Part shown: positions 31,801 to 64,000 of the stretch, piece after piece
Layout of the letters: every line of letters begins with the position of its first letter
Numbering within the stretch: the stretch's first letter is position 1
From: Polytrichum commune
Taxonomy: Eukaryota > Streptophyta > Polytrichopsida > Polytrichales > Polytrichaceae
Length of the DNA: 64,000 nucleotides
Assembly: GCA_950295325.1 (NCBI GenBank)
Contig: OX485806.1
Span: 19,592,001 to 19,656,000, forward strand
Direction: 5' to 3'
Position numbers and translations under genes: made by a program
Notes under the pieces: model-generated
Seen by the model: the letters and a program-made list of their open reading frames with translations, nothing else
Database searches by the model: none
Told to the model about the DNA's origin: nothing

Positions 31801-34764
31801 GGGTTTCTTGAGAAGTAGGTATCACAAAATAGTCTAAGTTGGTGAGGCACTTGGCATCAAAGGATCACATCCAAAGGGTTAAATATACAATTGAGAAAAT
31901 AAACACCAAAGAAAAGACAACATCGTTTCTCCTACAATGACACTAAAAGTTTACAAGTCAAAATCTATCACAATATCAAATCTCATTGATTTGATGAGCA
32001 ACTTGGTCGAGAATATACATGCATTAAATCCTGGAAAGCTACAAGCACAACATGATCTCAAAATGTCATTTGAGAATAGAGGCAACCCATGTACGAGATT
32101 TCACGATTGAGGTATTGGAGGTGACAGGTGATTTCAATAACTACGTTTGGAGAAAGAAAAACAATTGGCTCGAAAGCACTGGCATTCAGAGCACGATCCG
32201 ATAACTCAAAACTGTGAGCCCCATTTCGGGACGTTTATTAGGGCATGATAGGTTAGTAATAACTCCCTTTGTGGTGTATCTCATTCGCAGAAAGGCGGTT
32301 CACTTGCCGAGTACGCAATAGCATCTGTGAAGACCTGCATAATTCGGCCCGAAGGCGTGTCGGCCGAAGAAGGAGCCTCCATTGTTGTGTCTGGTTTCAC
32401 CGCTTTACAAAGCGTGCGCCAGGGTGGGATTACAAGCGTGAATGGAGGCAGCGAACACTTGAATGTTCTCATCACCGGAGCATCTGGCGGTGTCGGTGTC
32501 CTAGTTGTGCAGGTAATTATTTCACGTCCCATCACAGTGAACTGTTTTTTGTGTTTTTTTTTTAGAATCCAACGGTGGATAAGATTGTTTAGCCCACTAC
32601 CTATGAATGTTCTTTCTAAAATATGTAACTACCTACATGCGGCACTCAAAATCCACTCAGGAAATCCATACTTTTACATGTACACCTTTTTGTGTAGGTT
32701 AGTCGCCCCAACACATAGTGCTTGAGAAACGGAAGATGGTTGTGAGAGAGAGACAGAAACTTGAACTTCAAGAGGACTTCTCCTTTCTGCTAGTTCAATC
32801 ACAAGTTTGCACTTGAACTAGCAGTGGCCAGTGAATAAGTACTTCACTTCTGTCATGACGTGGATTTCTTGTTTTCTATTTCCTTATGCTAGTTCCTTTT
32901 GGCATGGGAGGGAGTGCTAATGAATCTAATTTTTTATCAACGGGACTCAACAAACACTACACTGTTTATGGTGTTTAGCGTCACTTAGTATTTGGAAGCA
33001 CGCCAGGCTGTAACGTTTTGCTATAGATTTTGTTATCTACCAACAATGGTCAAATATGTTGTGTGGACATCATAGGACATAAAGAAACTCAACAAGGTAA
33101 AAATTTACATTCCACATTAAAAGGTATAGCATCGCGTGACTCCAAATAGTCAGTGACACTAAACACCATAAATGTGTAGTCAAAGTCCTATAGATTTTTT
33201 TATTTTTTTTCACACCCCTCCTCACACCAGTTTCTATCAATAGAGGATCCGAATACAAACAGTGACATATATATATGTATATATCACCTATATTAGACTC
33301 TCCTCACATCACGTATGCAGGTGTTATTTGGTTGCATTTCTTGATCGGACACCTACATTTGGTTTGCGTATGGTGCGGTAAGATCAAAGAACAACCACCA
33401 TAAAGACTCGTGGTTTCTAAGAGATAGGATTACGTCTGCAGAACTTTATTAACTAGTCCACACTCAAGAGTCAACACAATTCGGGAGGACCTGTGTATCC
33501 CCCTAACATTACCCAACCCAATACTCTTAACTCCGGTGCGGAGTTCGATGCGGCTCTGATGCGGCTCCGGGGAGGTTCGGATGCCAGCTCCGGTGGGTCC
33601 ATTTTTCTGGCCCTCCCCGTTTTGGCCCCTTGATGACTTTTTTTGGTTTTTTTTTGCTAAATTTGGGTTCTATGGCCCCAAATTACTCTAGGAGGCCCCT
33701 TCTGAGATCAAGTAAGGCCCCACCCACTCAAAAAAATAGGGGGCAATTTTTGCCCCAACCCACCCGAACCCACCTGAGCTGGCATCCGAACCTCCCCGGA
33801 GCCGCATCGAACTCCGCGCCGGAGTTAAGAGTATTGGGTTGGGTAATGTTATCCTGTGTATCCGGTAAGGAATCAACAAGCAGACACTTCCGATAACCCG
33901 TAACTAAATCAAGAGAGATCCGATTTTCAATCCAACTTGTGCTAGATCGGCTAATGCAACACTAGTTTCGTCGTGGTAAATCTCCTCGGAAGAAGCTGGA
34001 GAGCATGAAAAACCAAACCGAATTAACACCCATCAGTGCCCATGAAATTTCTTTCTTTTTGTGCAGCTCGTGAAGCTCGGAGGAGCCATGTTACGATAAA
34101 CCGTAACTAAATCAAGAGAGTTCCGATTTTCAATCCGACTTTTGCTAGATCTGCTAATGCAATACTAGTTTCGTCGTGGTGAATCTCCTTGGTAGGAAGC
34201 TGGAGAGCATGAAAAACCAAACCGAATTAACACCCATCGGTGCCCATGGAATTTTCTTTTCTTTTTGTGCAGCTCGTGAAGCTTGGAGGAGCCCATGTTA
34301 CAGTCACCTGTGGAGCTCGCAACTTGGAGCTTCTTCGAAGCTTGGGAGCTGACGAGGTTTTGGACTACCGGACCCCCGAGGGCGCGAGGTATGAGTGTCC
34401 CGTCGCCGGGCACAAATACGACGTGGTCCTCCAATGCGCCCACTTCGTCCCCCTCGTGAGCTTCGCCCCCGTGCTCAAGCCCGTGGCGAAGGTGATCGAC
34501 TTGACGCCCACGTTCATGAGCCTCCGGGAGAGCTTCTACAACAAGCTCGCGCTCCTCACGAGGCTCACGAAGTCGAGCCACGCGTTCGAGAATTTCTTCA
34601 TGGCCTCGAGCAAGGCGGACCTCGAGGTGTTGGCGGGGCTCGTGCGCGACGGGAAGCTCAAAGTGGTGGTGGATTCGAACTCCCCGCTCTCCAAAGCCGG
34701 GGAGGCGTGGGACCGGAGCATCGGGCGGCACGCCACCGGGAAGATTTTGGTGTCCATGCAATAG
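28864..34764 (+). CDS. CEQORH: Chloroplast-envelope quinone oxidoreductase homologue (MDR/zeta-crystallin type)
   Basis: Five exons: 28,864-28,917; 30,645-30,786; 31,411-31,502; 32,291-32,512; 34,273-34,764, all with GT-AG introns and matching phases, giving about 333 codons, close to the roughly 330 of the ceQORH family. Exon 1 encodes MMRQVQYAQYIGGSSALQ, matching the family's M.AxQYxxYGGGxxxL start; there is no cleavable transit peptide, as is known for ceQORH. Exons 2-3 carry the GroES-like part (NPLDWRLQEG, LPRKFPFVPG, TDVAGEVV). Exons 4-5 carry the NADPH-binding Rossmann fold (TGASGGVG, about residues 158-165; then TCGARNLELLRSLGADEVLDY) and the C-terminal ATGKIL. The family reduces quinones or reactive enones with NADPH at the inner plastid envelope. 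The Met at 28,864 or 28,867 could initiate. Exon 5 is much more GC-rich than the other exons, and intron 4 contains a decoy splice site. Substrate is inferred. Confidence 0.88.
29311..29341. repeat. Perfect 12-bp hairpin in intron 1
   Basis: CGTGTCACAAAA is followed after a 7-nt loop by its exact reverse complement TTTTGTGACACG. It lies inside intron 1 of the oxidoreductase gene. Function unknown. Confidence 0.6.
30409..30565. repeat. Foldback repeat in intron 1
   Basis: Left arm GGTCATGGGAATATAACCAT and right arm ATGGTTATATTTCCATGGCC are inverted; the outer parts of both arms (CATAACATTACTCAATGTTA and the ACGTTGAGAACTGTTATG side) also pair, with interruptions. Part of the right arm recurs near 20,300. 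Probable decayed MITE. Confidence 0.4.
33502..33852. mobile_element. Long-armed inverted-repeat element in intron 4 (Mutator-like MITE?)
   Basis: Arms of about 90 bp are almost perfectly inverted: left TAACATTACCCAACCCAATA, right TATTGGGTTGGGTAATGTTA, and inner CGGAGTTCGATGCGGCT against its complement. An 11-bp direct repeat, CCTGTGTATCC, flanks the element at 33,491-33,501 and 33,853-33,863, the 9-11 bp range typical of Mutator-like elements. There is no transposase. The left arm has an extra short GATGCGGCTCT repeat. Confidence 0.75.
33892..34301 (+). repeat. Tandem duplication of intron-4 end plus start of exon 5
   Basis: Copy 1 (33,892-34,094) and copy 2 (34,095-34,301) are about 200 bp each and highly similar: CGTAACTAAATCAAGAGAG, then TAGTTTCGTCGTGGT, GGAGAGCATGAAAAACCAAA and CTTTTTGTGCAGCTCGTGAA. 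Each copy contains the polypyrimidine tract, the AG acceptor and about 30 bp of exon 5. Copy 1 has lost one C (GGAGCCATG against GGAGCCCATG). Using its acceptor at 34,065-34,066 would reach a TAA at 34,097-34,099 after ten codons. Confidence 0.9.
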
Positions 34765-45546: not shown

Positions 45547-45915
45547 TTGCAAAATGAATGGTATTCAAGTGGCAGCCACACACATCTAGAATTGGAGGTT
45601 TTCATAGAAAGTTGTTTGGACATGAGAGGTGGACCATATGTTTTGAAACTTGGGGCCACACTACATGTGCAAATGAGCCAACCAGACATCCTCTGTATAA
45701 AAGGACTCCCTTACAAAAATGAACCACCATCAAACCCATCAGACAACATCACAATACAATTTATTGAATTTACATATTGTAACGATAGGTTCCCACAAGA
45801 AACAATTGAAAATAAAATACAAAAGTACCAACCACTTTCAAATAACATAACTAACCTAGGATGGAAAGTTGATCCACTCATAGTCATCACAACATAAGCT
45901 AGAGGCACAACGCAG
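45547..45915 (+). pseudogene. Restriction-like endonuclease domain fossil, 5' part
   Basis: The frame encodes QPDILCIKGLP followed after 14 residues by IQFIEFTYCNDRF and then GWKVDPLIVITT. The PD...(15-30)...EFT arrangement and the GW-V-P-VIT-ARG block resemble the PD-(D/E)XK restriction-like nuclease at the C-terminus of RLE-type LINE polyproteins. The frame has a TAA at 45,895-45,897 where the family usually has a Gly, then continues ARGTTQ and stops being coding exactly at 45,915. The missing remainder lies at 55,227-55,391, so a retroelement has split this frame. No RT domain is left upstream. Identity is inferred from motif pattern only. Confidence 0.5.
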
Positions 45916-47626
45916 TGTCACGGTATGCGGCGTCGACGGCCGCACCTTATCCGTTGGGTTTCATCCATCTAGATTTGGATGGATGAATCTAGATGTGGAG
46001 AGGAAGGCTCTTAAGTGAGGAGCCTCCTCCTTGGCTTGGCATTCTTGCCAAGTCAAGTCTTGTGAGTTAGTGTGTGGAGAGAGCTTGTGTGAGGTGTAGA
46101 TTGCATGATTTTGCAATAAATCTTGAATTCTTCTTCCCCTGCTTACACTCTTGGATTCTCCCTTGGTGGAGTGAGAGATAGCTTGACTAATTGTGTGCAT
46201 TTGAAGAGAGATTTAGAGCTATTATGAGTGTTCTACTCTCTTCCTTCTCACTTGGCAAGAATGCCTTCACTTTTCTTCTTTGCTTGTTCATTCTTGAGAT
46301 ATTATGCGCAACAAAAAGCTTAAGGACAATGAATGATGAAGTTGTGAAGTGGTAGAGCGAAGAATACTGTGGATTTGAGGAGCAACAAGAAGAAAGAGGT
46401 GTCATTGTGAAGTTTACACGTTACCTTGAATTGTGGTGAGAAATCTTTCAATTTTCCACGGAATTTCATGTTATTTGGCTCACATTCAAGCTTAAATTCA
46501 TGACATTGAGCTTTGGAAGCGGATTTGTGATTCCAAGTGCAAGAATCTGTAAATCAAACACAAAAATTATTTGAAACAAATCAAAAAAAAAAAGGAAGAA
46601 GAGGGAGGCCCTCCGTTGCTGCTGACCCCCTGGTTCGCGGCTGTCCGCGGCTGCCACCCAGACTGCCACCAAGGCTGCCCACGACTGCATTCGGCTGCCT
46701 GCGGGCAGGCCAGCGGTTGCTGCAGCCAAGGAATGTAGCAGGTTTGCAAATTATCCAAGTGTTTTTATTTTTATTTTTATTTTATTTTGTGTTTGTGTTT
46801 GTTTAATTAATTAATGCATTAATTAATTAAACCCGAATTTTTTAATTTAATTAATTAATTAAAATTCCCTTACAACTTCTAATCTTTTCTTTTGTCTCTA
46901 AGAGGTTAATTTCTTGGGCTCATTAATCAAGGATACAAGGAAGAAAACCTAAGCTCTTATGAAATATTAAAAATACTTGGAATTTCTTTTAGGGGTTGTG
47001 TTGTACGAAATTTCCGAGGGGAATGCCATTGGAGATTGGGTGGCATGTGAAATTTCCGTTCGGCCTAAAATAAATTATTATTAAGGTTGAATTGTGTTTG
47101 TCAACACATATTCCTAGCATTGTTGTGAGGAGAGATTCTTAGGTAGTGGTGGGAAAATGAGAGATGTGCATTTTATTTTCTTAAGCAACAGGGCCTCTTC
47201 ATTTTTTGACCACCAACCGCAGGCGGGTACCGGTTGGTCACGGTTGCTTTCAATTTTTGTTTAAGTGTTGTTTTGGGGAAGAGGATCCAGTGTTGTTCTT
47301 GCATTGTTCCTTGTATTTTGTTTTGGTACCTTCCCCTATGGCGGGCTGTAGTGTTGGAGTGTTCTAGCATTGCCCCATTTTGTGTAGTCCTAGATTGTGA
47401 TAGGGTACTGTGGAGGTAAGGTCGGATTAATGACCGACATGACCTTTGTTTGTGCACCAAGTGGGCGGTGTTTGTTTTCACTTGTGGTGAGGCTAGGTTA
47501 ATGACCAGCAGACCATAAGTTTTGGTGGTGGTTGCAGGTGCATGTTGCCTTTGACCATTTTTCTCTTTGTACCTGGATACTAATTCATTTGGATTGTTGA
47601 TTCGGTGACCATCCCATTGTGGGTTT
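45916..47626 (+). other. 5' non-coding part of the retroelement (LTR/leader)
   Basis: This 1.7-kb stretch between the inferred left boundary and the gag ATG contains CT- and GA-rich segments, a poly(A) run near 46,585, a GC-rich patch with repeated GGCTGCC words (46,610-46,735) and an AT palindrome TTAATTAATTAATGCATTAA near 46,803. It must hold the 5' LTR and primer-binding site, but neither an LTR end nor a clear tRNA-complementary PBS could be identified. Confidence 0.5.
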
Positions 47627-49408
47627 ATGGTTACAACTCGTACTCAACACTATCGTTCTCCGTCCCTAGGAGCATCGGAAGGTCATCCCTCGGACCTCTC
47701 GGACGTTGAACCAGTGGTAGCACCCAACGAGGTTTTTTAGCCTACTTCGGCGTGGGGGACTATCACTCGGTCTCACGTCCTGTGGGTGGGAACCTTTGAC
47801 AATATGAAGGAGGAGACTAGGGGAGGGATACGGGACCGGTTTTCCGGTCGAGCAGGGACCATTTCTCTGCAAAACTGGAAAATCCGGTTTCGTACGTGGA
47901 TGCGAGAGAAACGCCAACGCAATACCAATTTTAACGATTGGTATGCGTTTGAGCTTCTGCCTCAGCATTTGGAGCATGAAGCTCTCCAAACTTTTGAGCA
48001 GTGGACGGAGGCTCATTGGATGGAGCTGCACCAGGTGGAGCGGTACTGGGAGACTCGGGTTGAGTTGGTATCCGCATTGAAGGAAGGCGCAGCTTCCAGT
48101 TTCATGGCCGTTCCGGATGTTAAGACGGAGGTACCGGAGGGAGGTTATGTGGTGGATGTGGAGGGAGCTCCTCCTGGTGAGCCGAGGGCTACGGGTCCTG
48201 CTCCCACTGCGGCGAGTACGTCGAGCCTAGTTCTTCCACTCTCGCGTTATGCCATGGCCACCCAAGCGGCTTTAGCCTCTTTAGGGGCTCCGCCAGATTT
48301 TGAGCCATTGCGGACATTTGAGCTGCATCTACAGGGGGAGTACGGAGGCTTCCGGCGTGACCAAATGCAGCGGATACAAGATTTCAGACGGGAGAAGGAC
48401 GATACACCTCGTATCATGTATACGAGGTTGGCGAGGTTTTCCAGAGAATCTGGAGGTGTGTTCGCGGAAAGTCAGTTGGTGAAGGTGTTTTTGTCAAAAA
48501 TTGACAAACGTCTCCTTGATATGGCGCTACCCAGGATCATCATGGAGTTTGGTGGTCGAGCGACACTCGCAGAGGCATTCGCCGTGGTGGAGCAGTGTGA
48601 TCGTGCATTATGTCATCACGATGCCACTGATTTGGTGTCCTTGCTAGTGGATTCTAGCAAATCCCGAAGAGTTCCGGTTGCGGCTGCGGGATTAGCGGAG
48701 GCCGAGGTAGACAAGACCATGTATTGTTGGTCTTGTGGGCAGGCCGGCCACGCTAAGAAGGACTGTCCTTCGAAGTAAAGGCAAGCCCAGACCGTCACTA
48801 CTCCGAAGCGGAAACCATTTGTTCCCGCTAAGGGCTCGGCGAAGGGGACGACGGGTAATCAGTTACCCAAGCAGTTGAAGTGTTCCCATTGTGGGCGGAA
48901 CAATCACGCGGTAGAGAACTGCTTTGCTCTCCATCCTGAAAAACGTCCTTCTTCCGACCGGGAGAAGATGTTGGAGGCGAAGATTGGAGCCATGGAGGAG
49001 AGGTTCAAAAGTTTGGCGTCATCCGGCCAAATTTTGGCCTCACCGTCTTCCTCCGGAGCTCATGCTAGTTCTTCCACTCCGGATTACTATATGTTCAGAG
49101 CTTCGGGCGAGGTGGTGAGATCCGCGGCCGTGATACGTGCTCAAGCCGTATCACAATCCATACCTTCGACTACAAATGAATATGTGGCAAGCTCGCGAGC
49201 TCGGGACAATGCGCCCGCGGACCAAATTGGTCAGGCACGACTACCATTATCTTTTGGATTGGCCGATGCCGTCATCCGAACGATGAGGTTTCACATTCAG
49301 CGACTGATGTGGCGCACACGTTGGCATCCAAGGTGTTGCACATACCTTTGTTCACGGCCATGGAGTGGTCATCGCCAGAGTTCCAACCTGCTAAGGTTTT
49401 TCACTTAG
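47627..49408 (+). pseudogene. Retroelement gag with two CCHC zinc knuckles
   Basis: Starts at ATG 47,627 (MVTTRTQHYRSPSLG). A TAG at 47,738-47,740 and a TAA at 48,776-48,778 interrupt one continuous frame, which otherwise runs to 49,408; both fit a C-to-T change in a Gln codon (CAG, CAA). The capsid-like region has the aromatic/basic pattern of retrotransposon gag. The first knuckle is CWSCGQAGHAKKDC (about 48,724-48,765), with CX2CX4HX4C spacing; the second is CSHCGRNNHAVENC (from about 48,878). Between them is a basic linker. The pol frame is -1 relative to gag and overlaps it for at least 200 nt (49,201-49,408), so expression would need a -1 shift, or an indel has occurred; no classical slippery heptamer was seen. 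Confidence 0.75.
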
Positions 49409-51693
49409 CAGGTAGGATTTTGGAAGGGAAGGCATCCTTACCTTCTCTGACTGTGGCTCAAGCCACTACGGACATCCCTGCTTCTGAAGATCCTGAGGAT
49501 GTGGCCAAACGGCGAGCGGGACTTGCGGCAGAGACCATTGCGTCTTTTGACGTACACGCCTCAGATGACAAGACACCGACCACGTCTTATGACTCACCAG
49601 TATCCGCGGGTGCAGCCTATCTGTTTGATGTCGCTGCTAGACATGTCCGCGAGCGCCGCGGTATTCGACCCGGCGTTGTGCGTATGGTGAATGATACCGG
49701 AATTTTGGTGGTCAGTCGCAGTGGGAGCAATGCTACTCGGGTTGCTCCCCGTTGTGTGATGATGGATTCAGGGGCACAACCAGTTATGATCGGCAAGAGG
49801 CTTGCCCAAGAGTTGAGGTTGACGGCCGAGGATTTGGCTCCCTGTCCATTCACCATTGTCACATCCATTGGTCACGTGGAGCGGGCCATGGGTTATACTC
49901 GAGAACCATTACAGCTTAGCTTCCGAGTGAAGCCTGGAAATTCACCGGCACCTCTTCTTCTTAGGTGTGCGGTGACGGATGCGACCAACTATGACATTTT
50001 AGTTGGTCAGCAAGCACTTTACCCTCTTGGTTTTGGTTTGGACAACTGGACTGAGGAGGCGTGGATTCGACCAGGTTGGTCGGCTGGGGATGGCCGCAGG
50101 GAATTTATTCCCGTGGCTTTCGCGGCGGCCGCGACCATAGCACCATTATCTATGGTTTTTGGATGTGGTGCTATGGTGGACACATTGCCTTATGGTTCCG
50201 CATTGTTGGAGGAGTCATTGGCATTCATGGGGAGTACAGACGATCAATGGGATATGGCACCTAAGGGTGCATTGGTGTGCCATCCCAATGATCCCCTTCC
50301 TCCTTGGCGTGATTCCGCCGAGCTATTTCGAAGGTGCGAGGATATTGTTCACTCTCTCACTCCTAGGATACCGGTCATAACGGGTGTCCTCTCGGCATTG
50401 GCACATCCCATTTTGTGGCAACCGCAAGACGCGGGGATTACTTTGGTGGAACTGTTTGGGGGCATCGGCACAGGCTTAGCGTCCGTATTGGAGGCTGGCC
50501 TCACGGTCAGACGGTATGTCTATGTGGACAACTCTCCAGTGTCCACCCGTGTGGCTCGTCACCATCTTCACCAGTTGATGGTATTGTACCTCCAGCAGTT
50601 ACACCCAACTGCCATTCATGGGTGTTTTTCACGTCTCCCTCGTGATGTTACACTCATCAGTGAGGCCAACTTACGACACTTGGGCCCGGTGGATATGGTG
50701 ATTGCGGGATGGCCATGCCAAGGCCACTCACGTGCTGGAGCAGGCCGAGGTTTAGAGGATCCCAGGTCTAGCCTTTTCTGGGACCTCATCCGGCTTATGC
50801 AGTGGTGGTTTACCCACCAACCTTCCCCTCCAGGGTATATCTTCGAGAATGTACCTTTGTTGGGAAACTCTCGGGACAAGGTGTTGGAAGGCGATTATTA
50901 TGTTCGTCAACACCTTGGAGATCCCATTTTTGTGGATGCCGCGAGCATTGGTTCTTATGCCCACCGACCTCGGTGGATTTGGACCAACCTCGCACCGTCA
51001 TCTACTTTAGCTGCAGCATTTTCTGCAGTGCCTCCACCTTTTGATCAAAAGGTGGATGACATCTTGGATCCAAACCGGACTTCTTTGCCAGTTATTCGAG
51101 ATGATTTACCCTCGTTGGCATTGGTCAACAAAATGGGGGCACCACGGCGGGCCTTTCCCACATTTATGACGTTTTCACAGTCATTCGCTTTCCGCGATAG
51201 GGGGCCGGGTATGGTGTGGGATGTTCACACCAAAACCCACACCGAACCATTGGCTGACGAATGGGAACGTGCCATGGGATTCCGCACTGGCACCACCGCA
51301 GCTCCCGGCCTTTCTGAGGGCCAACGACGCTTCGTGTTGGGCCAAGCTATGGATCTTCATACTATGGTGAGGACTGTTGCTTTATGCCTTTCATTGCAAA
51401 GGCATCGTGGTGACCAGTGGTTGTCTCTGGGGGCAGAGGATTCTGGTCAGGGGGCACAGCGGTCCACACCCATGGAAGAGGGAATTCACGCCATGGTTGG
51501 AGAAGCCAAACGAATTTTTCAATTCGAGCAGCATGTGATGGAAGAACTTCGAGCTCAACATTTTTACACTGCTTCGGTTTCTTCGCCTCCGGTGGTGGCT
51601 TCATCATCACATATTGGTGGTGATGAAGAAATGTCAGACTCTAGTACTAGCACCGAGACTGGGGACATGGTTAATGCCCCCTCCTCTCATTAG
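49309..51693 (+). CDS. Protease-methyltransferase part of pol, open reading frame
   Basis: A frame of about 794 codons, open from before 49,201 to a TAG at 51,691-51,693. A retropepsin-like domain has the active-site MDSGAQPVMIG (Asp codon 49,765) and a downstream YDILVGQQALYPLG block. A cytosine-5 methyltransferase domain follows (about residues 375-700). The last 90 codons are a Ser/Thr/acidic linker. There is no ATG at 49,309 (the codon is GTG); the natural product is expected to be part of a gag-pol polyprotein, so the start is arbitrary. The terminal TAG lies in the frame that continues into RT, where CAG (Gln) is the likely original. It is the longest unbroken frame of the element. Confidence 0.85.
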   Translation: MAHTLASKVLHIPLFTAMEWSSPEFQPAKVFHLAGRILEGKASLPSLTVAQATTDIPASEDPEDVAKRRAGLAAETIASFDVHASDDKTPTTSYDSPVSAGAAYLFDVAARHVRERRGIRPGVVRMVNDTGILVVSRSGSNATRVAPRCVMMDSGAQPVMIGKRLAQELRLTAEDLAPCPFTIVTSIGHVERAMGYTREPLQLSFRVKPGNSPAPLLLRCAVTDATNYDILVGQQALYPLGFGLDNWTEEAWIRPGWSAGDGRREFIPVAFAAAATIAPLSMVFGCGAMVDTLPYGSALLEESLAFMGSTDDQWDMAPKGALVCHPNDPLPPWRDSAELFRRCEDIVHSLTPRIPVITGVLSALAHPILWQPQDAGITLVELFGGIGTGLASVLEAGLTVRRYVYVDNSPVSTRVARHHLHQLMVLYLQQLHPTAIHGCFSRLPRDVTLISEANLRHLGPVDMVIAGWPCQGHSRAGAGRGLEDPRSSLFWDLIRLMQWWFTHQPSPPGYIFENVPLLGNSRDKVLEGDYYVRQHLGDPIFVDAASIGSYAHRPRWIWTNLAPSSTLAAAFSAVPPPFDQKVDDILDPNRTSLPVIRDDLPSLALVNKMGAPRRAFPTFMTFSQSFAFRDRGPGMVWDVHTKTHTEPLADEWERAMGFRTGTTAAPGLSEGQRRFVLGQAMDLHTMVRTVALCLSLQRHRGDQWLSLGAEDSGQGAQRSTPMEEGIHAMVGEAKRIFQFEQHVMEELRAQHFYTASVSSPPVVASSSHIGGDEEMSDSSTSTETGDMVNAPSSH
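50434..51400 (+). other. DNMT3-like cytosine-5 DNA methyltransferase domain
   Basis: Motifs occur in canonical linear order, which excludes the rearranged DRM type. Motif I is TLVELFGGIGTGL (SAM binding, Phe codon 50,455). Motif II-like YVYVDNS follows. Motif IV is VDMVIAGWPCQGHS with the catalytic Cys at 50,716-50,718. Motif VI is FENV (Glu codon 50,845). Motif VIII is AHRPRWIWTNL, keeping the RxR pair (50,965 and 50,971). LDPNR and FPTFMTF match DNMT3 LEPGR and FPVFM, then WERAMGF, and motif X is RRFVLGQAMDLHTMVRTVAL. The target-recognition part is short, as in DNMT3. All catalytic residues are present. DNMT3-class enzymes methylate DNA de novo; Ty3-type elements with captured methyltransferases have been reported from charophyte algae and other retroelement classes from dinoflagellates. 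Activity of this copy is inferred, not shown. Confidence 0.92.
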
Positions 51694-54600
51694 CAATTAG
51701 AGTTTGTGCCAGCATCAGGTGGTTCTCCTTTGGTGGAGAGGGAGACTACAGAGTTTGATGATTGGCCATTGGAATTGGGTCCTCATCTCACTGGTGCTGA
51801 GGCACGGAAAATACGAGCATTTATTCACTCGTACCGTAGGTGTTTTGCTTTTAGCCTTCAAGATCTTGAAGGTTATAAAAGAAAGCCCATCCACATTCAG
51901 TTGGAGGACGACCATCCCATTTTTCGGAGGCCTTATAGGCTCAGTGTTTCCGAGCGGAGCGGCGTTCAAGCTCGTTGCCGAGAGCTTTTGGCAGCAAGGC
52001 TAATCGAACTTTCCAACGGGGAGTATGCTTGTGCTATGGTTATGCCATCGAAAAATGATATCTTTGGCAATTGGACGGAGAAGCGGATGTACGGGGATTA
52101 CCGTCCAGTTAATCGGAAGACCAAGTCGGATCGATATCCCATGCCAATCCCGGAGGAGTTGTTCGATGCCCTCGGATTTGCTCGAGTCTTTAGCACGTTG
52201 GACTTGAGATCCGGTTATCACCAACTCCCATTACTTGTGGGAGACCGAGTGAAAACCGCATTCTGGGGAGTTGATCAAGATGGGAAGGATCAACTTTACC
52301 ATTGGAAGTTTCTTCCGTTTGGCCTGAAGAATGCACCTGCGGAGTTTCAGAGAGTGATGGACCAAGTTCTCTCTGGCTTACCCTTTGCTCGGTGTTACAT
52401 TGATGACGTTATCATTTTCAGTATAACACCACAGGAGCATGTAAGGCATCTTCAAGCTGTTTTTGAGCGGTTGCAGCGGTGGGGATTGCGCTTACACCAC
52501 GGCAAGTGCAAGTTTTTCCATGACCGGCTGGCATATCTGGGGCATATGATTGTTCCAGGAGGTCTTGGGGTACAACAAGCTAAGGTGGACGCCTTGCAGA
52601 AGATTCCGGCACCGGTTGACGTGCCGAGACTTTGTGCTTTCTTGGGCTTGGCAAATTACTATCGGCGATTCGTCAAGAACTTTAGCTTGATCGCCAAGCT
52701 TCTCACCATTCTCACGAGCAAGGACCAACCGTGGACTTGGGGTCGTGAGCAACAACAGGCGTTTGAGACATTGAAGCAGAAACTGGGTACGGCTCCAGTG
52801 CTTCGACATCCAGATGTCTCCAAATCTTTCCAGTTGCATACAGATTGGAGTTCATTGGGTTTGGGAGCAGTTCTCACTCAGAAGGATGATTTTAGTCGGG
52901 AGTATGTTGTTGCTTACGCTTCGCGAAGCAATAACACAGCGGAGGCTAATTATTCATCCTACGAGGGAGAAGCATTGGCGGCGGTATGGGCTATTGCCCA
53001 TTTTCGGCCGTATCTTTATGGTCAGCACTTTACTTTAGTGACTGACCATTAGCCATTACGGTGGCTCATGGAGTCGGATAAACTTACTGGCAAGCTTGCC
53101 AGGTGGGCTTTATTGCTCCAGGAGTATGACTTTGAGGTGGTACACTGTACTGGGATTAGCAACATGGATGCAGATGGACTCTCACGCAATCCAAGTCCTT
53201 CAGATGAAGACTTGACCGGGGCCAGATGGCATGGAGATTGTGATTGAGAGGCGGTTCCATGTTGGCATGCGGCTGCCTACCTTACTTTATTTTCTGGTGC
53301 ATCTGTTGAGATTCCGATACAGGGTTCGGATGATGAGACTGATCGGCCTCAAGCTATTGTGGATATATGGGAGGATCTTCCTGTATTGCATAAGCTTCAA
53401 CAGGGTACCTTTCCTTTGTCTATTTCGGCAATGGAAAGGGATAGGATTGGACATCGAATAACAAGGTTCCGTTGGGAGAACGGTTTGTTATTTCGATTGT
53501 GGCCGGATGGGACAAGGCGTATTATTCCTAGGCCGGATCAGAGGGCCTCCTTGGTGCGACAAGTGCACGAGGAACTTGGCCATTTTGGCATACGCAGGAC
53601 ACATTCGATGTTGCGTGGCCAATATTGGTGGACTGGCATGTATCAGCAGGTGGCTGCTTATGTCGGGAGGTGTGAAGTTTGTGACCAGGTCAGGTCTAGC
53701 TTTAACATCTTGTCACCTCAGTTACAGCCCTTACCTATCATGGGATTGGGCTACCGTTGGTCGCTAGACTTTGCGGGACCGTTGGTTGTCACGCCACGTG
53801 GAGCAAAGTACGTGTTGGTGATGGTGGAGCATTTTAGCAAGTGGATTGAGCTTGTTGCTTTACCCCAAAACTCTGCAGAGTTGGCCGCGGCCGCCTTTTT
53901 GGATCGTGTGTTGGCACGTTTTGGAGCATCGGCTGAGGTGTTGACGGACCAAGGGAGGGAGTTCTTTGGTGTTTTTGAGGAGTTGTGCACTAAGGCGCTC
54001 ATAGATCACCGCACCACCTCTCGGGATCATCCGGAGGCAGATGGTTTGGCTGAACGGGTTGTTCAGACAACCAAGCATGGCTTGAGGAAGTATGGATTAC
54101 TTCGAGGAAGCCACCGGGATTGGGACCTTATGTTGCCTTAGATTGCTATGGGCTATCGATTTAGTAGGCAAGCCTCTTTGGCATCCTACAGCCCGTATCA
54201 ATTATTGTATGGACGTGAGCCTATACTCCCGAGTTCTATTCGGGAAAAACTAGCTCCTGTTGTAAAATTGGATGACCCAGACCTTTGGGCAGAGTGTTTG
54301 CAGGAGCGGGCTCAATTCTTCTAGAGGGCCATGCCTATGGCCATGGAGAATTTGTCCATTGCTCAGCACCGTGACACATTGCGTTATGCACGCATTCGTA
54401 GTGGTGCTTACCGACCTCAGTTGCGAAGATTTCGGCAAGGGCATTATGTCTATCTCCAACGTGACTACGACATTGGATGTTAGGGCGGGGCGCACTATCC
54501 TTCGGGTGAAGGAGGTGTTGCCGAGTGGTTTGTTGTTGTTGGAAGGCAAGGATGGCAGGCAATGTCGAGAGCATTCCAAAAACTGTGCCCCATGTCATCT

Positions 54601-54835
54601 AGCTATTGAGGGTACAGTTCATCCTGAACTGGACATCGTGCCAGAAGGTCTTCCATGTTTTGTGTGTGGAGAGAAGAAAGGAGCGGCTACTATGCTCTTG
54701 TGTGATCAATGTCAACGCGGTTGGCACATGGCATGCTTAAGGCCACCCTTGATTTCTCTACCATCTGGATAGTGGAGTTGTCCTCGCTGTCGAGGATCTT
54801 CGGTACTTGGTGCTTCCACCAATCGTACTCAATGA
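51694..54835 (+). pseudogene. RT-RNaseH-integrase part of pol, interrupted
   Basis: In the same frame as the methyltransferase: RT with YGDYRPVNRKT, STLDLRSGYHQ, PFGLKNAPAEFQ and CYIDDVIIFS (catalytic YIDD at 52,396-52,407); RNase H with HTDWSSLGLGAVL, YSSYEGEALA and VTDH; integrase with an HHCC zinc site (HEELGHFGIRRTH ... CEVCDQV), the DDE triad in SLDFAGPL, LTDQGREF and HPEADGLAERVV, and a GxHVYL-like tail. Stops interrupt at 53,050 (TAG), 53,245 (TGA), 54,139 (TAG), 54,322 (TAG) and 54,770 (TAG), and the frame shifts by +1 between about 54,455 and 54,475. Most stops fit C-to-T in CAG or CGA. A TGA at 54,833-54,835 may be the natural end, though coding-like sequence in another frame continues to about 55,010. 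Confidence 0.85.
54656..54793 (+). other. PHD zinc finger at the C-terminus of pol
   Basis: The sequence CFVCGEKKGAATMLLCDQC, then HMAC, then CPRC follows C-x2-C, C-x2-C, H-x2-C, C-x2-C with the conserved Trp two residues before the last pair (WSC), the full zinc pattern of a PHD finger. It sits where chromoviruses usually carry a chromodomain. PHD fingers commonly read histone-tail lysine states, so a role in targeting integration is plausible but inferred. A TAG at 54,770-54,772 interrupts it just before the last Cys pair. Confidence 0.85.
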
Positions 54836-55220
54836 TCCTGTGTGATTTTCATCATCTTGTGTCTGCCCAAATGGAAAATGAGGAGTTATGGCTTAGAGAC
54901 GCAATCAACATGAGGCGGTGGATTTAATTCTTTGGGATCTGATGGCCAAACATCATAGGCGATTAAGGATGGGGCTCACATTGCACCCAGCCTACAGTTC
55001 CTTGGAATAACATTTACCACACTAGTTAGTTGCAGAACAATCTTTCATTATCCATGCCCTTTAGATTGGCATTGGTCCTAGCTGCTTGGCGGGACTCCAT
55101 AGTCAGCTGAGGGGGGGCATGTCGAGGTGTGTTGTTTATGTGTGACTTTGCTATGTTTTAGTGTTGTTTGTTAGTGGTGGTTGGTACTCGAGCTGCAGTG
55201 ACACACGATCGTTATTTACA
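54836..55220 (+). other. Retroelement 3' region with polypurine tract
   Basis: Mostly non-coding after the pol stop. TCAGCTGAGGGGGGG (to 55,117) looks like the polypurine tract; TGTCGAGGTGTG from 55,120 would be the 3' LTR start, leaving only about 100 bp to the inferred right boundary. This short remnant shares only its first dozen bases weakly with the left boundary (TGTCACGGTATG). Confidence 0.5.
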
Positions 55221-55391
55221 CGACAGCACGCCCCATCAATGAAACTCCTCGAAACAACATTCAAACTACCAGAAACCACCATTAAACACACATTCAAGGA
55301 AATAAACACCATCGCCATACAACATGCTGGATCAATTATTCTACATAAAAGGAAAATAGAAAATAACCAACCATTACCTATAGATTACTAA
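55221..55391 (+). pseudogene. Restriction-like endonuclease domain fossil, 3' part
   Basis: After CGACAG, the frame reads HAPSMKLLETTF, INTIAIQHAGSII and LHKRKIENNQPLP, then a TAA at 55,389. This fits the C-terminal end of the same RLE-type domain whose 5' part stops at 45,915: both break points fall on codon boundaries, so removing the retroelement and one duplication copy leaves the frame in phase. It was therefore one open frame before the insertion. Confidence 0.5.
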
Positions 55392-57041: not shown

Positions 57042-58798
57042 ATGGACGGCATTTCTAGCAACGAGCAGGAATCACCTACACCAACCACATACACCCGCAA
57101 GCTAGTAGTTAATATCCCGGAAGCACTACTAGCATCACTCCGAACTACATGTGCGGCCAAGGCAGATGTATCCCTTATAGGGAGAATCCAGGGTAAGCAT
57201 CCCGGGCTCAAAGCCTTGACGGCTTGGGCTCGGGAAACACTACACCCATCTCTTGCACTTCTTTCGCTTAAAGCTAACAATTTATTTGAAGTCACATTTA
57301 CAGCATAGGAGGGCAGGATTCATGCACTCACGCAAACCGCACTCACCTGCGACACCGCCAACATCTCCTTCTCCAGTTGGCGTCCGCATTATGACTCCAA
57401 AACACCCCAAGCCGAAGACAACCTCGACTTTCCAATCTGGGTTCAAGTTGTTGATCTCTGCCAAGTACTCCGCGATGACACCTTCCTCCAAACAATTGGA
57501 GGACAGATTGGACAGGTGGTCGCGATAGATAGCTCGGACGCGTACAGGGCGAAATTGTTCGGGCCTAGAATTCGGATTCTGGTAAGGGACTTGCAAACAT
57601 TGCCACACACCGTGGTATTCCCAAGATTAGATGGGGAGGGCATAGTTGAATATCCTCTAGAATATAGTGGCCTACCCAATCAATGTGGTAGGTGCCGCGC
57701 AATGGACCATCAAGTCAGACAATGCCCGAAGTGGGAAGGCAGACCAAGAAGAAGAGACTTCCCATCAAAACAGAAACCACCCCAACCACAACAGGACCTC
57801 CCCCCACCTCAAACACCCATCGCTCAACCTCCGGAAGCTGCCCCCACAGAGATTGTCCCCGAACAGGCAACTGCGAGAGAAGCAGCACCACCTGCTGAGG
57901 CTGAAACACCAGCAATCACAGACAACCCAACACTAGAAACGCCAATAAGTGAGGATATTCCTAATGCAGCTCTACAAACAAATGAGATAAATTTTCCAAG
58001 CTTACCCTCTCCGAACCCAAGTGCCTCACCAATTCGATCGCCCTCGACGCCAGCTCCAGGAGCAGGCCCTTCCTTCGTTTGGCGAATGAAGACACCTGAC
58101 ACAACTGCCATGGATAACGAGAAGAGAAAATTCCAAAACAACAAAGGGAGTGACTCAGCGCCGCTTACCCGCCAAGGCTACCGCTCAGGCCGACTAGCGG
58201 AAGATTTTTGGATGGCAATTGGAATGCCGAACATGCCACCTTCTACAAAGAAAAAGCTAAGAGTCATACCAATCCTCACCAAAAACATGGAACACGCAGA
58301 GTACTTGATAGACAAAACCCAACCTTCCTTGAACACATTAGAGTCATTCACGTTGCGGAGCTTCTAGCAGGCATCCCCTGGACAACACCGCGCGCCAGGC
58401 AGCATGTGGTCAACGAGGTATCCCAAGCACTCCACAAACTCCTTATCTTCAACACAAGCAACTCAAATCCCTTTCAGAGATGGAGTCAAGGAAGCTGGCA
58501 ATCTCAATGGACATTGTCAATGGAAGGAGAACACATCTGCACACTGCATGCCATTATCCCAGTGCCAGAATCAAAGATTAAGATCCGAAAAGGCAAAAAC
58601 CTAGGTTGGGGCCCAATTACAGCAAAAATCCAGGGCATGATCAACACGCACAACACAGAGGAGATCACAGAAATGACGGAAGGAAGGCTCACAGGGCACA
58701 CACCTTGCTCCAGCTACCAATCCACACCTCATCTTTCAGCAAAGATTTCTCCTAACCCCTTTGTCGTGCTCAGTGAGGAGGATAACCAATCCTCCTGA
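57042..58798 (+). pseudogene. LINE ORF1 (DUF4283-like, CCHC zinc knuckle)
   Basis: Starts at ATG 57,042 (MDGISSNEQESPTPTTYTRK). Residues about 30-190 resemble the DUF4283 nucleic-acid-binding domain of plant L1 ORF1 (GRIQGKHPGLKALTAWARET; FPIWVQVVDL). The zinc knuckle CGRCRAMDHQVRQC (first Cys codon 57,684) is of the zf-CCHC_4 type after YPLEYSGLPNQ. A Pro/Gln/Ala-rich linker follows. A TAG at 57,306-57,308 interrupts the domain (CAG expected). A frame change lies at about 58,330-58,360, after which the last 150 codons continue in another frame to NPFVVLSEEDNQSS and a TGA at 58,796. The protein would coat LINE RNA. Confidence 0.75.
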
Positions 58799-58815
58799 AA
58801 TCCTAAATCCAATTG

Positions 58816-61800
58816 ATGAAGGGTGACAAACTCACCATAGCAACCCAGAATGTGTGATGTCTGGGCCAAGGCTTCATCGGAAGGCGCAAAAGGAAGGAAA
58901 TTAAGGATTTCTTCGCTCACACCACCACTCCCACAGATATACTGTTACTACAAGAAATTAAGCTGCCAGAAGAGGCTTGTCTCAAACAAGCCCGCTTCCT
59001 GGAGCCCAAAGGTGGTAATAGCTTTTGGAATGAAGCCAATTCTCCGCCCAAACCAGCCGCTTCAAGGGAGGCACAGGAATCGTATTATCTGAACGAATGG
59101 CACAGTCCGTTACGCATCATGGAGTTCTCTACCCGGGACGTGCACAATACATCACCATTCAGCTCAGTACGCAGTTACACATAGGGATCATCAACATTTA
59201 TGGTTTCAGTGAGATTGGGCCCAGAGCGATGCTCTGGAACCATCTCGCACAAACAGAACTCCCGGATGCATAATGGTTTCTTGCAGGCGATTTTAATAAT
59301 ATCGAACAAGCACGCGATAAACAAGGGGGCTCCAACAAAACGAACATCAATAGACGAGAGCTGGAAGGGTGGACAAGATTACTTACCAAACTTGGGGTGA
59401 GGGACTCCTTCCACGTCAGCTCCTTCCCCAGACAATCAGATAAGTTATTTACTTGGACCAATGCACATAATGGGTCCACCATGATACAATCCAAAATCGA
59501 CCGGATTTATATACCTCCACGGGTGGTACTCATAGGAGGCACCATGGAGATACTCCCCACCCTTCATGACATTTCTGATCACGCGGGGGTCACCTTACAT
59601 TTCAACAACGAAGCAAGGAGGCAAGCAAAATCCCCCAGCTTCAATAAAGGGCTGCTCAAGAATGAGGAGAGTAAGATAACCCTCCTTGGCACTTGGAAAC
59701 GCGTAATGGACGATGACGCAATCAGTGGCTGGAACAATAAGATGGTAGCTGCAAATCATGCAATTAGACCGAAATCCGAAGAACTAACAAAAGCGCAAAG
59801 AAAAAAGTGGAAAGAGACGTACGCAGCGCAATTTGCAGACATCATCGAAGTTGAAGCGAGCTTCAGCACAATTGGGGGTCGATGGAAGCAAGGGAACGAC
59901 TCAGCACTGCTCAGGCAGCCCTGCACGAGGTCAGGCAACAAAAATTTCAATACAGAGAAAGCGCCATACTTTCAAAGTGGGCCCGTGTTGGTGACCGATG
60001 CACAAAAGAATTTTTTGAGCATCATTCAGGCATCAAAAGACCCACTCCTATCACAAAAATACTAGATGGGGATAGAATGATCTCCAACCAAACAGAGCTG
60101 GAAGCCCATATACTCACCTTTTATGAGCTCCTCTACGCTAGAGTTGAACAGGTAGAGCACAACGAGGAAGCAAGAGAAGATTGTTTCACATTCGTCAAAG
60201 TAGCGGTAACTGAAGACCAAAATGCAGAGTTGCTGTGGCCACTTACCATGGACGAGGTCACAGAAGCTGTCAAACAGCTTCCCGCGGGTAAGGCCCCAGG
60301 AGTCGATACAATCCCAGCCGAGTTCTACCAAGAACTCTGGGACGATATAGACTATGACATATTCAACTTCGTGTGCGAATCTATAAGTCAAGCCTGCATA
60401 GCCGAAGAACTTAATGTTAGCAAAATCGCCCTTTTACCCAAATCTGAAGATAGATTGAGGATACAAAACTTTCGACCCATCTCCCTACTAAACACACTCT
60501 ACAAAGTAGTTGCCAAGGTATACGCTAATCGCATGAAGCCACTTCTACACAACTGGATCCTACCTTCTCAAACCGGTTTTGTCCCCAATAGATGCATCTT
60601 AGACAACATTTTCCTAGCATTCGAAGCAATAGAATGGACATTGGAAAACAAACAGGCCCTCAGTATGATCCTACTGGATTTTGAGAAAGCCTATGACCAA
60701 GTTAATTGGACATTCTTACAGCGTACAATGGAGAAGATGGGGTTTCACCCTACCTGGATCAAGCAAGTCTTGTCCCTTAACCTGAACGCAGCAGCATCCA
60801 TTATTGTCAATGGGGAGCAATCTCCTATCTTCAAAATTCACAGATCGGTCAGGCAAGGTTGCCCGCTTGCACCTTATTTATTCCTACTTACCGTCGACGT
60901 TTTAAGACAGATGCTCCAGCATCCAGACAACCAGGTACAAGGCCTACAGTTACCAGACAACACCAAGATAACGAACCAGATGTTCGCGGACGACACCTTG
61001 TTATTTCTGGATGGCACCCCCGAAAACCTTGATAGAGCGCTGGAGGTCATCAACAGATTCGGTGCAGCATCCGGAGCCAAGCTTAACTTGCATAAGTCGG
61101 TAGGCTTATGGGTGGCCGACACAGAAAGGTGGTGGCAGTGGGGGGAAGCAGCTGGATTGAAATGGCTCCTTCCGGGCAAGGTAACCAGATACCTTGGTTA
61201 CCCATTTGGCCTCCACATTGCCCAGCAGGAGAAAGACAACAAGATGCTTAGTCAAATTAGGAAACACCTGGCCAAATGGTCCGGGATCAAACTTTCACTA
61301 GCCGGGCGGATTACGGTCTCTAACCAGGTTATCCTATCCTCCATATGGTACCCGGCATCGTGTTCTGATATCTCTGGACATGCACTCAAACTTGCCAGAG
61401 CAACAGTTAGAAATTTTATGCAGTCAGGGCAAAAAGAGTCCTATGCACAAGCAAGAGTGAAATGGGCCACAGCTGTGCTCCCAATCGTCAGGGGAGGAGT
61501 CAAAATATTAGACCCGCAATGGCAGGCATCTACCTTACTCGTGAAGTTGCTGACTAGAGGGTTATCCGTCGGGTATGAGCCATGGAAGGTCCTAGTACGG
61601 CACAGAGTAGCTCAGACAAAGCAGTCCCGAAGAGGGAGATGGCCCGCACATGCAAATTGGATTATGAATGCGCATAATCTGGTCAAGCACGGCTCTACAA
61701 TGTGGCAGGGAGTCATGAAAGCGTGGGGGACAATTCAATCCGGCCTTGAACAACAGGATCCTACGAGCTGGTCCGAAATACACAGGCAACCCCTATATGG

Positions 61801-64000
61801 GAACAGGTTTCTCACCAATGAAGAAGGGATACAGTGGGGCACAGAAACACGAACTATCATGTTAAGGTGGGCGGAAAAGAATTACACCACAATTAAAGGC
61901 ATATCAAGGACAGAGGGATACGGATGGCGAACCTTCGAGGAGCTCCTGAGGCTACGCAACTCCCCAGTATCTCCCCCCTTATACAGAAGAGTCCTACATA
62001 GCATCCCTTGGGAAGCCACACCCATGCCTCCACATTCCACTGGCCAATGGTTAGCACACCCGGAAGATGATGGCTCCATCAAACGGGTCTTCCACCTCAA
62101 AAATTCACAAACCTAGGAGGCATCAGTCTACCAGAAGGAGCCCTCATAGCAACTAAGACCCCTGGAGTACACACAGCCACTACCGGAGGGCTGCAGAGAA
62201 GTTCGCGTAGTGTGCTGTGGAGGGCCAAAGAGAGATATTATAGAGTATAATCCCACGGAAGAGCTAATGGAAGAACAAACACTCTGGTTATGGGGCAATA
62301 CCTAGGTGTGTAACCTTGAATGGGATCCGAAGGAGTGGACCTGGAGGAGATTGGGGATTCTGGCCGACACAAACATCCTTAACTACTACACCAAAAGAGG
62401 TTACAAGGTTGCCCTTCGACAGGATAACAACAAAATGAGTGTCGATGCAGAGCTTGAGGCAGCGGGCTTCAACAGTAAATCTAGAGCAAAGTTTTTTAAC
62501 AGGATTTGGCACCCTCACCTCCCTAGGAAAGTATCTGCCATGCAGTGGCTCATCCTCACGGAGGGACTTCCAGTGGGGGCCTGGAGGGAACGTATTGGTC
62601 TCTCCAGCGACTGTCAACTCTGCCCAAATGGTACTAAAGAGACCTTACAACACGCCTTTAGAGACTGTCCCGAGGTCAGTCAAGCGTGGGAGCTATTCAA
62701 CAACACTCGCGTAGCAGCAGGTTTGACAACATCTTACCGCACATGGTCGGAAATCAGCCGTGGATTTATGACAGAACCTGATGGCCCTAGCGTGGAGGAG
62801 AACCTCCGTTGGGACACAGCTGCTGCATTCTCCATCAATGCTGATACACCATGGGATACACTTCGGGCTCAACTCCTGTGGGCCATCTGGTGCCAACGGG
62901 TAGCCCACGCCTTTAGTGAGGAACAATTCCACTTAGGAGTGGCCTTATGGCACGCGTGGCGTAACACCATTTATTGCGCAATGGAGGCATTCAAATAACT
63001 ATTTCGACATAAGCGCAATGAAGAAAAACGGCATGAACTAATTTCATGCTTTCAGAAAATCTGGACAGCTGGAAATATCATCGGCAAGCAACAAGGAATG
63101 GACATCAAATGGTACCTGACTCCTCACCTTGCCTTCTTGCCAATCGAACTCGGGGCCTGGGTTATTCCACCCATCAACATACACCGGCTGTCTCCTTCAC
63201 CGGACCCGAAGGAGGAATTCGCAGCAAGGGAAGACTTCCCTGATCTGGTCCATGAATTTGTCCAAAACATTGGGAACGCTTGGAGGCCGCCGGTCCAGGA
63301 TCCACGGGAGGACGCACAGCCAACGCCCCCCAATTCCTCCTCCGTTGAGGGGGATCAGCACCACCCAACACCCAATGAAGATGTTGGCCCAACTCACAAT
63401 CCCAATGCTAGTCCCAGGGGGGTGCGGATGGCTACAGCCGACGCCAGCACAAGCAACAGACCCGATGGCGCACGCCCCAAACCCACCAACAGGCCCAAAA
63501 AAAAAGGGAAAATTGCACACACAATTGCAGCAGGAGACGGGCTTACACCAACACCGAGGACTACTCGGAGAGATTCGAAACGTCCAGAGAGCTACCATAC
63601 CACACATTGGACAACAATCCACCAGTGGCAAGGAAAACCACCCATCCGGCCGAATCGCCCCAATCAGCCGCCCAAAGCAACGATGTACATTCGGTCCTCG
63701 CCACGGACACCATGGAGACCTCTCGGTAGCTCCAGCGATTGACAGAGCTCCTCTAACGGACAAGGGAGAGGAGCGACCTGACAACTCCGACATCGAAACA
63801 CTCCTGAACGAAATCCATCTCTGCAGGGATCAGGACACACTCCCTAACCTCCCCTGGGAAGAGGAAACTCCACACGAATCCAGGGAAACAGGACAAGGAA
63901 TTGACGCCTCTCGACCCCCCGACCCAGGGAGGACCCCTCCCAGAAGCAGACCCAAAGCCAAGTGTATGTTTGGGCCGACTAAGAACCTGAATAGGACACG
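58816..64000 (+). pseudogene. LINE ORF2 (APE endonuclease, RT, zinc-binding, proline-rich tail)
   Basis: Begins at ATG 58,816, 17 nt after ORF1. Endonuclease motifs: LLLQEIKL, IGIINIYG, LAGDFNN, KIDRIY and ISDHAG. The RT domain (about 60,240-61,160) shows LPAGKAPGVDTIP, LLNTLYKVVAKVYANR, LLDFEKAYDQVNW, RQGCPLAPYLF and FADD (60,983-60,994). A reverse-transcriptase zinc-binding domain follows (IWHPHLPRKVSAMQW ... CQLC ... HAFRDCP). The frame continues past the TAA at 62,996 into a proline-rich, basic tail running to the window end, after another frame change near 63,730. Stops: TGA 58,855, TAA 59,271, TAG 62,114, 62,147 and 62,303, TAA 62,996; frame changes near 59,050 and 59,880. The uninterrupted core is 59,882-62,116. 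The enzyme would nick target DNA and prime reverse transcription there. Confidence 0.85.

Follow-up and report, generated by a model that had tools for sequence, protein, structure and literature searches.

A Ty3/gypsy-type retrotransposon family with a DNMT3-like methyltransferase, a candidate readthrough stop and split direct repeats in a bryophyte-like genome

A Gypsy element that has captured a DNMT3 methyltransferase and has A-coding-B-A-B repeats is already on record: KnitGypsy-Dnmt3 of Klebsormidium nitens combines the Gypsy domains with both (de Mendoza et al. 2018, PMC5890265). SymbioDIRS-Dnmt3 of Symbiodinium likewise has DNMT3 in a retrotransposon polyprotein and split direct repeats (PMC5890265), and a 2019 article states that land plants have no methylase transposons. 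Here we describe a Ty3/gypsy-type retrotransposon whose protease and reverse transcriptase (RT) flank a DNMT3-like methyltransferase; a decayed copy of it occupies positions 45916-55225 of a 64,000-nucleotide stretch of genomic DNA (the window). From the window alone a first-pass annotation had proposed such an arrangement and pointed to precedents in charophytes and dinoflagellates, correctly as that literature shows (PMC5890265). We propose, with a probability of roughly 0.6, that the window copy belongs to a multicopy Ty3/gypsy-type family whose DNMT3-type methyltransferase would be expressed at the level of Gag and whose copies would integrate from end-joined cDNA. The odd A-coding-B-A-B repeats shared by the window and Klebsormidium elements would point rather to one element lineage than to a separate capture.

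The methyltransferase and the family that carries it

In the window copy a single open frame of 794 amino acids (49309-51690, + strand) encodes a protease, the methyltransferase and a loosely constrained tail. The methyltransferase, at about 50443-51357, matches Pfam DNA_methylase PF00145 (E 8.7e-12). All of the motifs named in the first-pass annotation could be located in frame: LFGGIG within 50443-50469, PCQ in 50710-50739, ENV in 50842-50853, RPR (an RxR) in 50962-50982, LDPNR at 51064-51078, FPTFM at 51154-51168 and a motif-X-like LGQAMDL at 51337-51357. The C5-methyltransferase motif set is complete and its order normal, that is, unrearranged. The best chains in the PDB are DNMT3A/3B, with E values from 1.8e-11 (single sequence) and from 8e-13 (profile built on five sequences). 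DNMT3A/B/C chains rank first, followed by 4onj (4.4e-8), 4onq (5.5e-7) and 3g7u (1.7e-7), and the lower-ranked matches are to bacterial HaeIII and HhaI, DRM2 (2.9e-4, 6.4e-5) and DNMT2 (0.0064). We take 4onj and 4onq, which the PDB names only 'DNA methyltransferase', to be plant DRM. At E <= 0.01 the PDB search gave no chain named DNMT1, MET1 or CMT. Motifs I to VIII are covered by the alignment, which is weak over the C-terminal third, and NCBIfam gives a dcm-type match below its cut-off. Judged by these similarities, the domain is closest to DNMT3 among solved C5-methyltransferases. The PCQ, ENV and RPR residues are retained in 5/5 aligned sequences from two subfamilies, and loss of the catalytic Cys, which had been considered a possible objection, was not seen among them.

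Around this frame the element proved wider than first proposed, with gag, integrase (IN) and a PHD finger as well, all on the + strand. The gag-like region (47741-48922), the frame of which is broken in the window copy, ends in two CCHC knuckles (48725-48766 and 48881-48922); the first matches PF00098 at E 4.4e-4, scoring 20.7 bits where the cut-off is 20.8, and the second was recognized by motif. The protease (PR) carries DSGA at 49759-49779, around which the Pfam aspartic protease matches are sub-threshold (E 0.037 and 0.075). A UAG-CAA-UUA stop-codon site (51691-51699) separates Gag-PR-methyltransferase from the RT-RNase H-IN-PHD part. RT, with YIDD at 52396-52407, and RNase H (51694-53052) follow in frame after this single UAG (PF00078, E 3.6e-29; PF17919, E 2.6e-36; PF17917). 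The integrase (53248-54141) has an H2C2 zinc domain (PF17921) and an rve DDE core (PF00665), with LDF at 53758, TDQG at 53941 and HPEADG at 54028, and its top PDB matches are the integrases of Ty3 (2.6e-16) and foamy virus (1.6e-14). The order PR-RT-RNase H-IN with an H2C2/DDE integrase is therefore present, the protease being placed by its motif and the sub-threshold match. No tyrosine recombinase was matched by Pfam in the seven window frames scanned, in which the DDE integrase was found instead. Close to the C-terminus of the RT-IN polyprotein lies the PHD finger (54656-54751; PF00628, E 1.1e-8), in the place that chromodomains occupy in chromoviruses; it is possibly a chromatin reader guiding target choice. 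The window copy is broken by a 19-base gap near 49269, which shifts the frame, and by further stops and deletions. Scans of the window for tRNAs and with Rfam gave no match, and neither did a search of viral contigs.

Matches to the 794-amino acid frame define at least 57 regions in the genome, the window included (58 match rows, two of which are adjoining pieces). This count is a lower bound because the search scored the nearest 57 of 846 candidates. The other 56 regions are 81-95% identical to the window frame and most match across all 794 amino acids. A separate genome search with PF00145 gave 123 matches, all above the cut-off; the one that was inspected resembles a fragment of a host gene, presumably DRM from its motif order. 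In a third search, with RT, the best 93 of 2961 candidates were scored, and a methyltransferase frame lies upstream in 6/6 RT loci that the methyltransferase list had not included. The first-pass annotation had asked about copies lacking the domain with clean junctions around it; none was found among the sampled loci.

Two of these six RT loci form a second subfamily, with 86% identity to the first in RT and 53% in the first open reading frame (ORF1). Between the subfamilies the methyltransferase is the best-kept part of ORF1, with 211/330 identical residues (64%), as against 78/150 for gag, 68/119 for PR, 83/170 for the linker and 37/95 for the tail. The pooled ratio of nonsynonymous to synonymous polymorphism (pN/pS) over 11 copies of the first subfamily is 0.31 for the methyltransferase, 0.28 for gag, 0.12 for RT-RNase H, 0.24 for IN, 0.36 after IN and 0.69 for the ORF1 tail. 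The methyltransferase is under purifying selection. The ten copies first taken besides the window were picked partly for their open frames, which tilts this sample to young copies. On these sequences the methyltransferase is an inherited part of a multicopy Ty3/gypsy-type family. Two points weigh against this picture of a uniformly selected, methyltransferase-bearing family. In a seven-copy subset the region after IN, PHD finger included, has a pN/pS of 1.12, based on very few changes, and the RT and methyltransferase searches scored the nearest candidates only, so that more distant relatives without the domain would lie outside the sample.

The stop codon and the repeat junctions

Gag, PR and the methyltransferase form a single frame of 1364-1372 amino acids (stop to stop) in 7/11 copies, and the part from RT to PHD, in frame after the stop, is open for 1045-1048 amino acids in 5/11. 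The one stop codon that had been reported before RT is indeed there, as a UAG, but it is not a mark of decay: it lies in a readthrough-type motif conserved in both subfamilies. The nonanucleotide UAG-CAA-UUA is identical in 17/17 distinct copies (18 matches, one copy having been fetched twice), and both copies read from the second subfamily have UAG-CAA-UCA. UAG-CAR-YYA is the type I readthrough consensus of tobamoviruses such as tobacco mosaic virus (TMV), and here the consensus and an open ORF in frame behind it are both present. Nine-base windows that are invariant over 11 copies are common nearby (104/400), which counts against the argument from identity, and the invariance of UAG-CAA-UUA is weak evidence if taken alone for that reason. 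The case for readthrough is made because the stop context persists in the second subfamily while the adjoining tail has changed. We infer, with good support, that the UAG is a TMV-type readthrough site and that the methyltransferase is made at the level of Gag; if so, the methyltransferase would be produced with Gag, and RT and integrase by readthrough only.

For the repeats, the ends of 31 copies were examined, 11 with 20 kb and 20 with 0.9 kb of the 3' side. Seven copies without a 3' end in the stretch were left out, giving 24, and L029 and L042 have no 5' end in the stretch, giving 22 with both. The repeats are A (334 bp) and B (106 bp). Split direct repeats of the form A-coding-B-A-B, as in DIRS, are present in 18/24 copies, which read A-int-B1-GC-A2-B2; the remaining 6/24, among them the window copy, have the form A-int-B1. 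Within the 20 added 3' ends, B1 is present in 14 (11 with A2-B2, three with B only) and missing from six (five with no match, one partial). The copies lack identical long terminal repeats (LTRs) at their two ends, having A on the 5' side and either B-A-B or B on the 3' side. In none of the 12 added 5' stretches with A1 does a B repeat lie before it, nor do self-comparisons of the seven four-part copies show one there; within each of these seven, the two A repeats have 0-7 differing sites. Among the 40 of 943 candidates listed by a search with A, the repeats of 12 pairs lie 8-11 kb from each other on the same strand, and 16 have no listed partner.

An exact 4-bp target duplication flanks 20/22 copies with both ends and the remaining two match at 3/4 positions, while shuffling the right flanks gave at most 7/22 duplications in 20,000 trials. 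The elements end in TGTC...GACA, that is, TG...CA; 22/23 readable 5' ends begin TGTCACGG and one TATCACGG, and 24/24 3' ends read ACACGACA. In the window A1 (45916-46249, +), the 5' end of the integrated element, begins TGTCACGG and is 98.2% identical to the A of another copy, and B1 (55120-55225, +), the 3' end, closes with TACACGACA and is 98.1% identical to another copy's B. The flanks are GCAG (45912-45915) on the left and GCAC (55226-55229) on the right, a match at 3/4 positions. Exactly 3' of A1, abutting its edge, is a primer-binding-site-like stretch, ACTTGGCAAGAATG (46250-46263, +; L056-L068), the 14 bases of which are near-constant across copies, with variable sequence after them. 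A polypurine tract, TGAGGGGGGGCA (55108-55119, +), lies exactly 5' of B1. The window copy has no A2-B2, and no direct repeat of 30 or more bases was found in window 40000-62000 because of this A-int-B form; that the element is an ordinary LTR element that has lost its LTRs was rejected, since the A-int-B form accounts for the missing repeat. In one copy, C3a (L021/L022), A1 is preceded at about 0.7-1.3 kb by a second fragment of A plus leader, 88.6% identical, which suggests a nested or repeated insertion.

The two internal junctions of the four-part copies differ in kind. GC separates B1 and A2 in 18/18 copies, and the resulting GACA-GC-TGTC is a palindrome, intact in 17/18. The A2|B2 junction is exact in 13/18, ambiguous in one (L039) and carries an insert in 4/18, of 3, 4, 7 and 12 nt: TAT, ACTA, TTATGAG and TGAGGGGGGGCA. 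The first three bases of ACTA are those after A1 in the same copy, and the 12-nt insert equals exactly the 12 bases of polypurine tract before B1 in the same copy. In retroviruses, polypurine tract sequence remaining where two LTRs meet indicates that cDNA ends were joined. Integration from joined cDNA ends would account for the variable A|B junction, the polypurine tract insert and the constant B-GC-A.

A proposed route and its alternatives

Foamy-virus and HIV-1 integrases cleave palindromic LTR-LTR junctions (PMC1180852, PMC1905944), and a comparable reaction would connect these observations. Ribosomes would mostly halt at the UAG, leaving the methyltransferase at the level of Gag and supplying RT and integrase through readthrough. 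Priming beside A1 and at the polypurine tract would yield a linear B-A-int-B-A with the normal LTR B-GC-A, a structure that would exist in the linear cDNA only. Ligation of the cDNA ends, in a 2-LTR circle or a concatemer, would create the variable A|B junction. The DDE integrase would then cut the palindrome GACA^GC^TGTC inside the LTR, dropping GC as in retroviral 3' processing, and insert A-int-B-A-B; its substrate would be GACAGCTGTC. These steps are well supported as inferences. The A-int-B copies may have arisen by double cutting of linear cDNA, from a circle with one LTR, or through B1xB2 deletion at a later time. Two matters count against the route as drawn: the stretch after A1 lacks the initial TGG expected of a tRNA-CCA primer site and could be matched to no primer, and the A-int-B copies could also stem from B1xB2 recombination.

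The weakest step is the last, in which a methyltransferase packed with Gag would methylate the newly made or circular DNA; we give it slightly under even odds. That the element might methylate its own cDNA or insertion site was already suggested in the first-pass annotation, and the CpG content of the copies does not back self-methylation. Inside ten copies the CpG observed/expected ratio is 0.70-0.75, and in the flanking DNA 0.50-0.71; just one of the ten has the lower value within the element (0.70 vs 0.71), and this measure gives no indication of self-methylation. In 8/8 compared pairs the per-site rate of C/T-type differences at CG is 1.5-2.7 times that at CHH, with small counts for the close pairs, and one pair has its highest rate at CHG; host methylation ordinarily leaves such a CG excess. 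In a yeast assay the SymbioDIRS DNMTs methylated CG and the Klebsormidium methyltransferase showed no activity, a result that its authors regard as inconclusive, human DNMT3B having failed in the same assay (PMC5890265). Taken to its full extent, the proposal would be that a land-plant element integrates routinely from end-joined cDNA by way of an LTR palindrome and that a DNMT3 made at the Gag level marks circular DNA in the particle before integration. We offer this only tentatively.

The substrate of the methyltransferase could instead be host chromatin or RNA, and not the element's cDNA; on chromatin it might, for example, cooperate with the PHD finger to silence the insertion site. De Mendoza et al. 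discuss chromatin effects at insertion sites and, for LINEs (long interspersed nuclear elements), RNA (PMC5890265), and both the PHD finger on the integrase polyprotein and the DNMT3-type catalytic motifs would suit such targets. The enzyme is however placed in the Gag-PR polyprotein and not beside the integrase, and we regard this alternative as rather doubtful.

The split repeats allow another route to the same structure. In DIRS and Ngaro the internal B1-A2 of A-B-A-B is a template that guides circularisation, and no end-joining of linear cDNA would then be needed; the repeat order is DIRS-like, and it is described in those terms for the Klebsormidium element too (PMC5890265). The seven window frames scanned with Pfam nevertheless show a DDE integrase and no tyrosine recombinase, 4-bp target duplications flank 20/22 copies, a polypurine tract lies exactly at B1, and the inserts at A2|B2, one of them a polypurine tract, are not expected of a templated junction. 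This makes the DIRS-type route improbable.

Just as improbable, in our estimation, is that the UAG arose by chance and became fixed in a master copy, with the methyltransferase an ordinary accessory of the Pol side and ORF2 translated through re-initiation or from its own transcript. Copies descended from a few masters would share a stop that need not be selected, and in Klebsormidium the Pol ORF is described as including the domain (PMC5890265). Yet the stop has stayed within UAG-CAR-YYA in both subfamilies, at 53% identity in ORF1, and the tail beside it is the fastest-changing part of ORF1. Re-initiation is also disfavoured by the lack of an early ATG downstream of the stop, as ORF2 has its first Met at residue 116 (114 for the window copy).

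That a host DNMT3 gene was inserted once into a retrotransposon without functional link, for which only the decay of the window copy could speak, is refuted by the existence of the family (at least 57 regions, the domain in all six further RT loci, a second subfamily at 64% and purifying selection) and has practically no likelihood left.

Host, neighbourhood and comparison with known systems

The genome comprises 408 Mb, about 406 Mb of it in seven chromosome-sized contigs, and plastid genes lie on a contig of 146,561 bp. A 200-amino acid piece of PsaA has its best PDB matches in 6l35/7ksq/7kux/7xqp and 8htu (446 bits, 4 differences), followed by 9lut/9luu (443 bits, 5 differences) and others at 429 bits or less; the first group is, we assume, Physcomitrium patens. 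A 100-amino acid piece of RbcL shows two differences from the best PDB chain, and five RALF loci are above the cut-off. A land plant, which the first-pass annotation needed for its suggestion of an extended range, is the likely host, rather than a charophyte; it is probably a bryophyte, and probably a moss, with which the DRM-like fragment, the RALF loci and the seven chromosome-sized contigs agree. Chromosome-sized contigs also carry short stretches resembling rbcL and psaA/B (G000:C3:14137891, C2:70106055, C4:47707642 and C5:337267), probably plastid DNA transferred to the nucleus. Close downstream of the element, window 57309-63739 (+) holds a LINE-like element with a DUF4283 match under the cut-off (E 1.9e-4) and long frames that by eye resemble endonuclease and RT. 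Elsewhere in the window, exons at 13864-15294 (+) resemble a plant mitochondrial-carrier gene, presumably BT1-like from the translation, and frames at 32252-34761 (+) resemble by eye a zinc-type alcohol dehydrogenase/quinone oxidoreductase gene.

The readthrough site, the end-joining reading of the repeats and the bryophyte, probably moss, host appear to be new: literature searches on retrotransposon methyltransferases, split repeats and stop readthrough, judged from titles and the openings of abstracts among the papers listed, showed no report of a bryophyte member, of a readthrough site or of end-joining. A family of at least 57 regions in a bryophyte-like genome would overturn the stated absence from land plants and offer a tractable host. 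The readthrough site alters the expected dose and place of the methyltransferase, with Gag and in the particle, and therefore makes the question of what a retrotransposon methylates testable. The repeat junctions are genomic evidence for integration from joined cDNA ends, a route proposed for retroviruses and largely set aside.

Compared with the catalytic domain of vertebrate DNMT3A/3B, its best PDB match, the window domain has the same order of motifs I to VIII and the same ENV. FP-x-FM, present here as FPTFM, is a DNMT3 feature. The two differ at the catalytic Cys, where the window domain has PCQ and DNMT3A/3B have PCN, and in their surroundings, as Pfam scans of the window frames gave no PWWP or ADD match and the PHD finger is in the other frame. 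In the cleavage of 2-LTR-circle junctions by foamy virus and HIV-1 the integrase also cuts a palindromic LTR-LTR junction (PMC1180852, PMC1905944), but in those viruses the palindrome and the ligated junction are one and the same, whereas in the window family it would lie inside the inferred LTR, and integrated copies would therefore be circularly permuted. SymbioDIRS-Dnmt3 differs in having a tyrosine recombinase and no DDE integrase, and it is treated as an independent capture (PMC5890265). KnitGypsy-Dnmt3, which we compare by its description only, is the closest: it shares the Gypsy domain set with DNMT3 in the polyprotein, the A-coding-B-A-B repeats 'as in DIRS', and an intronless DNMT3 of a divergent clade with unrearranged motif order and under purifying selection. 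Its methyltransferase is in the Pol ORF, with no readthrough mentioned in the available description, whereas in the window element the domain closes the Gag-PR frame, ahead of the candidate readthrough UAG; the bryophyte-like genome, of 408 Mb, has at least 57 regions of this family. The DIRS-like repeats of this Gypsy element were described without a mechanism in the portion of the paper at hand (PMC5890265), and the joining of cDNA ends that we propose for the window family would explain them.

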